A DNA stretch of 64,000 nucleotides from the NCBI GenBank assembly GCA_938091935.1, contig CALKNV010000001.1, positions 62,001 to 126,000 of the forward strand, read 5' to 3'. Shown in pieces: positions 29,997 through 30,761 of the stretch. The notes below the pieces were generated by a model. That model did no database searches. It worked only from the letters and a program-made list of their open reading frames with translations, and was not told where the DNA came from. Made by a program: the position numbers and the translations under genes. Numbering within the stretch: position 1 is the first letter of the stretch; each line of letters opens with the position of its first letter. The DNA comes from an uncultured Pseudomonadales bacterium (GTDB lineage Bacteria; Pseudomonadota; Gammaproteobacteria; Pseudomonadales; Pseudohongiellaceae).

Positions 29997-30117
29997 CTTT
30001 CTTCAAATATTTCTCTCTTCTGCTGTAAGAAATCCCCCACTTGTCCGGTATTATTAACTGCGCGTTGCGCAATTCGTTATACGGATAAACCAAGCGGTGT
30101 CCCCGCAAGGAAAACTG

Positions 30118-30708
30118 ATGACAAAAAATAGGATTACTGGCACAGGCCTGCCCGGCAGATCACTGCTGGCTCTGGTTCTGTTGGCTGTTCTTCAGGTGTC
30201 GTTGGCACAGGATTATGTCTGGGCACCAGACTTTCCTGTTGGCTCCGCGCTACCTGAGGTTGTGGCTTTAGATCAGAATGGCGAACTGCGTCGCTTCGAT
30301 GATCTAAAAGGTGAGAACGGCATGCTGTTTATGCTCAGCCGTTCTTTTGACTGGTGACCATTCTGTAAAGCTCAGCTCGTGCAGCTGACAGATATTGCAG
30401 ACCAGTTTGAAGCCATGGGCATTTCCGTGGTTGCCATGACATTCGATTCGGTTGAAATGCTGAAGAGCGTCGAAGAAGATCAGGGAATTGAATTTACGCT
30501 GCTTCACGACGAGGACATCACCCACGTTAACCGCCTGGGCATCCTCAATGACATAGATTTTGAGCCTGACCATAGATTTTATGGCGTGCCGCATCCGGGT
30601 ATATTTCTAGTTGATCCTGATGGCACCATTCAGGCGAAATTTGCCGAGGAGGGCTACCGAACCCGACCCGATTTTGCCAATGTGCTGGAAGCAGCGGCAG
30701 AACTCTAA
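30118..30708 (+). CDS. Periplasmic redoxin (AhpC/TSA-like), candidate selenoprotein with Sec at TGA 30355..30357
   Basis: RBS AAGGA and ATG at 30118; ...LFMLSRSFDW[TGA]PFCKAQLVQLTDIADQFEAMGISVVAMTFDS... in one frame to 30708; split by the ORF track into 30097..30357 and 30379..30708. Confidence 0.7.
30362..30392 (+). promoter_or_regulatory. Candidate bacterial SECIS element
   Basis: UCUG-UAAAGC-UCAGCU-CGUGC-AGCUGA-CAGA: 4-bp lower stem, 5' bulge, 6-bp upper stem, 5-nt loop with G second, loop starting 20 nt after the UGA. Confidence 0.55.
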
Positions 30709-30721
30709 AGCCCTAAACAGC

Positions 30722-30761
30722 ATTAAAAAAGCAGGTAGTGAAAGCTACCCGCTTTTTTAAT
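30722..30761. terminator. Bidirectional-looking intrinsic terminator
   Basis: ATTAAAAAAGC-A-GGTAG TGAAAG CTACC-C-GCTTTTTTAAT. Confidence 0.85.

Follow-up and report, generated by a model that had tools for sequence, protein, structure and literature searches.

A redoxin gene of an uncultured Pseudomonadales bacterium with an in-frame UGA that is very probably read as selenocysteine

An in-frame TGA in a redoxin gene

Does the lone TGA inside a redoxin gene of this bacterium end translation, or is it decoded as selenocysteine (Sec)? The gene lies in the window, meaning the whole 64-kb stretch of DNA that was analyzed, and its frame runs from ATG 30118, which is preceded by a Shine-Dalgarno-like AAGGAAAA, to the TAA stop at 30706-30708. 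The sole in-frame TGA is codon 80 (30355-30357) and opens a UxxC motif (FDW-U-PFCK); 196 residues result if it is read through. The earlier note had described a frame open apart from this one TGA, and its coordinates and sequence proved exact; it had also stated that the supplied open reading frame (ORF) track splits the gene in two, and the standard-code list indeed shows ORFs at 30097-30357 and 30379-30708. The features considered here are as follows.

30118..30708, + strand: predicted selenoprotein gene, Prx-like/redoxin (PF00578), with a U80-P-F-C83 motif and 196 aa (frame, domain and homologues)
30118..30210, + strand: signal-peptide-like N-terminus, residues 1-31, ending ...VSLAQ (sequence and a modelled hydrophobic helix at residues 13-29)
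30355..30357, + strand: TGA predicted to be read as Sec, residue 80 (TGA in homologues, TGC/TGT in 10 Cys homologues)
30364..30366, + strand: partner Cys83 (TGT) of the UxxC motif (invariant in alignment A1)
30372..30388, + strand: putative bacterial SECIS (bSECIS) hairpin UCAGCU-CGUGC-AGCUGA, with a 6-bp stem and a 5-nt loop carrying the conserved GU
30734..30749, + strand: intrinsic-terminator-like hairpin and T run just past the gene (consensus match only)

The read-through protein matched PF00578 AhpC-TSA at 78.3 bits (cut-off, 26) and PF08534 Redoxin at 47.5 bits (cut-off, 26.6), and both matches spanned residues 41 to 190, that is, they ran across the TGA. Third-position GC was alike on either side of the TGA (0.51 and 0.53). 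Throughout the window, 74 frames were bridged by a TGA with 40 or more codons to either side of it; 17 of them had some bSECIS-like hairpin, and such a hairpin by itself is therefore weak evidence. A UxxC or CxxU motif together with a hairpin occurred only in 30118-30708; the 16 other hairpin-bearing frames had neither motif and were taken as chance.

The gene is flanked by lepB (signal peptidase I) on one side and by a DUF5916/CBM9 gene on the other, beyond which lies gcvT-gcvH-gcvP, and the lhr helicase gene is divergent from lepB. Wherever the locus extended that far, lepB adjoined the redoxin gene, and the other neighbors recurred in most of the Sec loci L013-L029; window-type neighbors were found at none of the five Cys loci. 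The redoxin gene may be transcribed on its own, and gene order gives no functional link between it and its neighbors.

Codon 80 in homologues and the selenocysteine machinery

Among 85,462 species genomes, 23 relatives were found, one of them partial and lacking the codon-80 region. The same codon was TGA in 17 of the 17 closest full-length homologues (L013-L029), all from other assemblies, and TGC or TGT in five more distant ones (L030-L034). Together with further TGC/TGT homologues (L051, L052 and L054-L056), this brought the Cys forms to 10 in total. The homologue check bore out the proposal, made in the earlier note, that this position is a site of Cys/Sec exchange. Of 392 genomes of the order searched with a profile, 26 contained the redoxin family; the motif position in its members was located with an HMM-guided finder. 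The TGA form was found in 21 of these, six belonging to the window's genus and fifteen to a second family; two of the 21, G339 and G409, are single-contig genomes. The Cys form was found in the other five, all belonging to another genus within the window's family. At least two genomes (L016/L046 and L020/L048) belong to both the close-homologue and the order-survey sets. A class-wide survey of 369 genomes at E <= 1e-30 had the window's own genome as its sole match (0 of the 368 others), and at this threshold the family therefore seems restricted to the order. A plasmid collection was also searched for redoxin homologues and contained none. Single genomes showed variation within the Sec forms: G064 carried two diverged copies (L060 and L072), each with its redox position encoded by TGA, and L070 (G284) and L058 (G245) had UGYC and USFC, respectively, in place of UPxC.

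The earlier note had tied its reading to the presence of selA, selB, selC and selD in the same genome, here an assembly of 2.22 Mb in 69 contigs with an estimated completeness of 58% and 0.08% contamination. All four were found above curated cut-offs: tRNA-Sec at C17:9155-9246 (67 bits, anticodon TCA), SelA on C16 (574.3 bits), SelB on C44 (360.9 bits) and SelD on C6 (276.1 bits). With tRNA-Sec, SelA, SelB and SelD all encoded by the source genome, the reading holds on this point. An Rfam scan of the 64-kb window gave zero matches, as expected because selC sits on another contig. A Sec-type formate dehydrogenase scoring above the cut-off was not found in the source genome, at its 58% completeness.

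Among the close homologues, 15 of 17 TGA-form genomes had tRNA-Sec versus 1 of 5 Cys-form genomes, and across the order the figures were 20 of 21 TGA-form genomes versus 36 of 371 other genomes (Fisher P value of ~8e-18, uncorrected for kinship). The TGA-form genomes with no tRNA-Sec match (G013, G017 and G374) all had SelB above the cut-off, such that each TGA-form genome examined possessed tRNA-Sec, a true SelB or both. Five Cys-form genomes (G018-G021 and G135) had neither, and their matches to the SelB model were EF-Tu-like only.

A putative SECIS hairpin downstream of the UGA and the decoding of codon 80

The putative hairpin lies a short distance past the UGA, with its loop beginning after 20 nt (counting from the UGA, the first loop base is number 21), and is evidence that was absent from the earlier note's account. 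Codons 86 to 90 read CAG CTC GTG CAG CTG in 18 of 18 close Sec forms. Among the 79 near-invariant degenerate columns of these 18 sequences, they were the only five with zero synonymous variation; mean codon entropy was 0 there versus 1.28 bits elsewhere, and none of 100,000 degeneracy-matched draws was as low. The stem was 98.1% paired when 35 distinct Sec sequences, drawn from both families, were compared. Changes on both sides occurred at three of the six stem pairs (U-A to C-G, G-C or A-U; C-G to U-A; G-C to A-U), and 18 such both-sided-change cells were observed versus 3.3 in shuffles (0 of 500 shuffles reached the observed value). When the partner was slid by 1 to 3 columns, pairing fell to 7.6 to 42%. 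In two of the five covariation measures, shuffles did reach the observed value (72/500 and 209/500). The second loop base was G in all 35 Sec sequences, and 34 of them have U next; the exception, L070, has a GG rather than a GU loop. Such a loop G is the hallmark of published bSECIS elements. RNAalifold, run independently, predicted exactly the hairpin at 30372-30388. The published bSECIS model, as given in the relevant passages of PMC13188914, specifies a loop of 3 to 9 nt, a G in the first two loop positions and a spacing of 16 to 37 nt, and the window hairpin agrees on all three points, with a 5-nt loop, G at position 2 and a spacing of 20 nt.

Folded alone, the window sequence gave energies of -10.7 and -12.7 kcal/mol over 40 and 56 nt, with no exceptional stability (z = -0.6 and -1.2); over 40 nt, a pairing other than the SECIS hairpin wins. 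The 6-bp hairpin alone, in the homologues, reached about -6.8 kcal/mol versus the bSECIS model limit of -7.5. Since single-sequence folding was not significant, it was dropped as evidence for a SECIS, and the case was built on synonymous constraint and covariation. Fixed spacing, compensatory stem changes and an invariant loop G place the redoxin family's SECIS alignment among the cleaner natural ones. The conserved SECIS loop is missing from the Cys forms. One of these, L051, has a perfect palindromic stem at the SECIS place, a little downstream of its Cys codon (CCAGCTG CAG CAGCTGG), without the GU loop, which may be a SECIS remnant.

These comparisons bear on the other ways in which the TGA might be explained. 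A pseudogene, in which a nonsense mutation has left a real stop that truncates the redoxin, would fit the two ORFs that the standard code yields and the failure of the read-through protein to reach the cut-off of any NCBIfam model. That the gene is broken is nonetheless extremely improbable: all close homologues and two families of the order share the TGA, with the downstream frame intact and conserved, other homologues have Cys at the same codon, the downstream codons carry extra synonymous constraint, and the Sec machinery co-occurs with the TGA form. As judged from the aligned genes, conservation of the TGA in practice refutes truncation. The fragmented and incomplete source assembly might raise the suspicion of a sequencing or assembly error, the true codon being TGC or TGT, but the TGA recurs in independent assemblies of many projects, the two single-contig genomes included, and the chance of such an error is vanishingly small.

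A lone in-frame TGA would look identical if the codon were decoded without selenium, either as another residue (e.g., Trp, if TGA=W) or through simple suppression. Against this, the neighboring lepB, gcvT, gcvH, gcvP and lhr are open without internal TGA, the homologues swap TGA for Cys and not Trp, and a bSECIS hairpin is found along with SelB, tRNA-Sec, SelA and SelD; decoding of this kind appears exceedingly unlikely. At bacterial Sec-UGA codons, termination competes with Sec insertion, and from this general knowledge a regulatory UGA can be envisaged, with two products of which a truncated 79-residue one would be meaningful at low selenium. That short product would, however, be without Cys83 and most of the fold, and we regard a regulatory role as very unlikely.

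The selenoprotein reading advanced in the earlier note is instead upheld by the sel machinery, the TGA/Cys exchange at codon 80 and the covarying SECIS hairpin. The aligned sequences indicate that the UGA at 30355-30357 is almost certainly read as Sec in a working, not a broken, gene, and that SelB-driven Sec insertion at the SECIS hairpin is very likely. We hold with very high confidence, on homologue comparisons and a structure model, that 30118-30708 is a selenoprotein gene that relies on SelB/SECIS Sec insertion and encodes a most likely exported U80/C83 thioredoxin-fold redox protein. From these lines of evidence, we infer Sec insertion, export, the catalytic role and the substrate of the redoxin as follows. 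At the UGA, SelB carrying Sec-tRNA(Sec) would bind the mRNA hairpin at 30372-30388, and Sec would be inserted in place of termination. The product would then most likely be exported and fold as a thioredoxin-fold Prx-like/ResA-like protein, with the U80-x-x-C83 pair as its redox center. The Sec selenolate would attack a disulfide or (hydro)peroxide substrate, C83 would resolve the intermediate as a selenenylsulfide, and a partner thiol system would then reduce the selenenylsulfide.

The UxxC redoxin, its relatives and the Sec/Cys exchange

An N-terminal signal directing the protein to the periplasm had been suggested in the earlier note, and hydrophobic residues at ~13 to 29, ending in ...VSLA-Q, do fit a signal peptide. 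Export to the periplasm is thus probable from the sequence and the model. In the structure model (mean pLDDT, 79.8), the protein adopted a thioredoxin fold with U80 directly before a helix at residues 81 to 99. The closest solved structures were PrxQ/Bcp-type, 1-Cys and other peroxiredoxins and ResA, with PrxQ/Bcp at the top. Alignment to a PrxQ structure placed C83 on the peroxidatic Cys, and alignment to ResA placed U80/C83 on its CxxC (register W-C-P-x-C-K). An AhpC-type peroxidatic Sec would be the wrong reading, because the peroxidatic Cys of peroxiredoxins aligns with C83 and the Sec is at the first UxxC position. The likeliest chemistry, as suggested by the motif and the model, is that of a periplasmic UxxC selenol/thiol center with disulfides or peroxides as its substrates.

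Prx-like thiol:disulfide oxidoreductase selenoproteins (PF00578, UxxC/UxxU; reference WP_010940744.1) are listed as high-confidence predictions in the catalogue entries of PMC9312934 and PMC13188914 (Table 1), and the GOS marine survey recorded "Prx-like 1" as abundant, with 225 sequences (PMC2398784, in the section on this family). The window protein resembles Prx-like 1 in having PF00578 above the cut-off, a UxxC motif, a bacterial SECIS and a predicted redox role; this label rests on the domain and the motif only. It differs from the catalogued members in its lineage, since uncultured marine-type Gammaproteobacteria/Pseudomonadales are not among the examples named in the relevant parts of these sources (PMC9312934, PMC13188914 and PMC2398784). 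The redoxin-family selenoprotein (PF08534, UxxC; "Prx-like 3" of GOS) likewise has UxxC and PF08534 in common with the window protein, and Prx-like 1 is the better label because PF00578 was the stronger match (78.3 versus 47.5 bits). Selenoperoxiredoxin (Prx/Bcp, TxxU)/PrxU has the same fold, but its Sec is at the second position of TxxU, whereas the Sec of the window protein is at the Thr position and Cys83 is at the peroxidatic position. That identity was rejected, Sec80 being three residues ahead of the Cys that aligns with the peroxidatic one. ResA/TlpA-type oxidoreductases have a CxxC register that matches U80/C83 and a signal-like N-terminus, but the ResA score was below its cut-off; SelL-related proteins (NF040769) have a related fold region, but the score was far under the cut-off, and a SelL-related identity was excluded on that model. 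Indeed, none of the NCBIfam models scored the read-through protein above its cut-off (PrxU, 20 versus 270 bits; ResA, 35.8 versus 170 bits; NF040769, 47.3 versus 120 bits).

The window gene is, on comparative sequence grounds, a well-supported new example of the recognized UxxC Prx-like selenoprotein class. Since formate dehydrogenase (FdhA) was the only selenoprotein in Pseudomonadales in the pertinent part of a 2006 survey (PMC1794560), the lineage is somewhat new for selenoproteins, and Sec use in aerobic-type marine Gammaproteobacteria would be extended beyond formate dehydrogenase. Routine annotation may lose the gene, despite its full-length protein, because the standard code splits the ORF and no NCBIfam model matches above its cut-off; across the whole redoxin family, automatic annotation may miss the Sec codon.

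In a tree of 48 sequences, several distant rows of which are on long branches, the ten Cys forms made up one clade (support, 97/93), and this clade was nested among the Sec forms if the tree was rooted with the distant, all-TGA Sec forms of the second family. Sec was thus likely ancestral in the redoxin family and replaced once by Cys, a reading from the sequence tree that depends on the root and on sampling by a profile made mainly of Sec forms. We tentatively suggest, at somewhat less than even confidence, that these proteins form an uncatalogued, order-restricted, secreted UxxC subfamily in which Sec was ancestral and a single Sec-to-Cys switch occurred, with some Cys forms (L034, L051, L052, L054 and L055) keeping SelB and/or tRNA-Sec. 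If this is true, something other than loss of the machinery led Cys to take the place of Sec. A well-resolved family that contains both Sec and Cys forms, with and without the machinery, is suited to asking when and why Sec is kept or gives way to Cys.

Cys was seen despite the machinery in five cases, with SelB present in Cys-form genomes G022 (L034) and G229 (L051) and tRNA-Sec present in Cys-form genomes G249 (L052), G069 (L054) and G208 (L055). Two genomes of the window's genus, G326 and G343, had tRNA-Sec, and no member of the redoxin family was found in them. Therefore, the Sec trait there serves other selenoproteins, and the redoxin gene is not essential to the Sec trait. In one further genome (G252), there were two tRNA-Sec matches ~8.5 kb apart, at C1:2693448-2693535 and 2702022-2702109.
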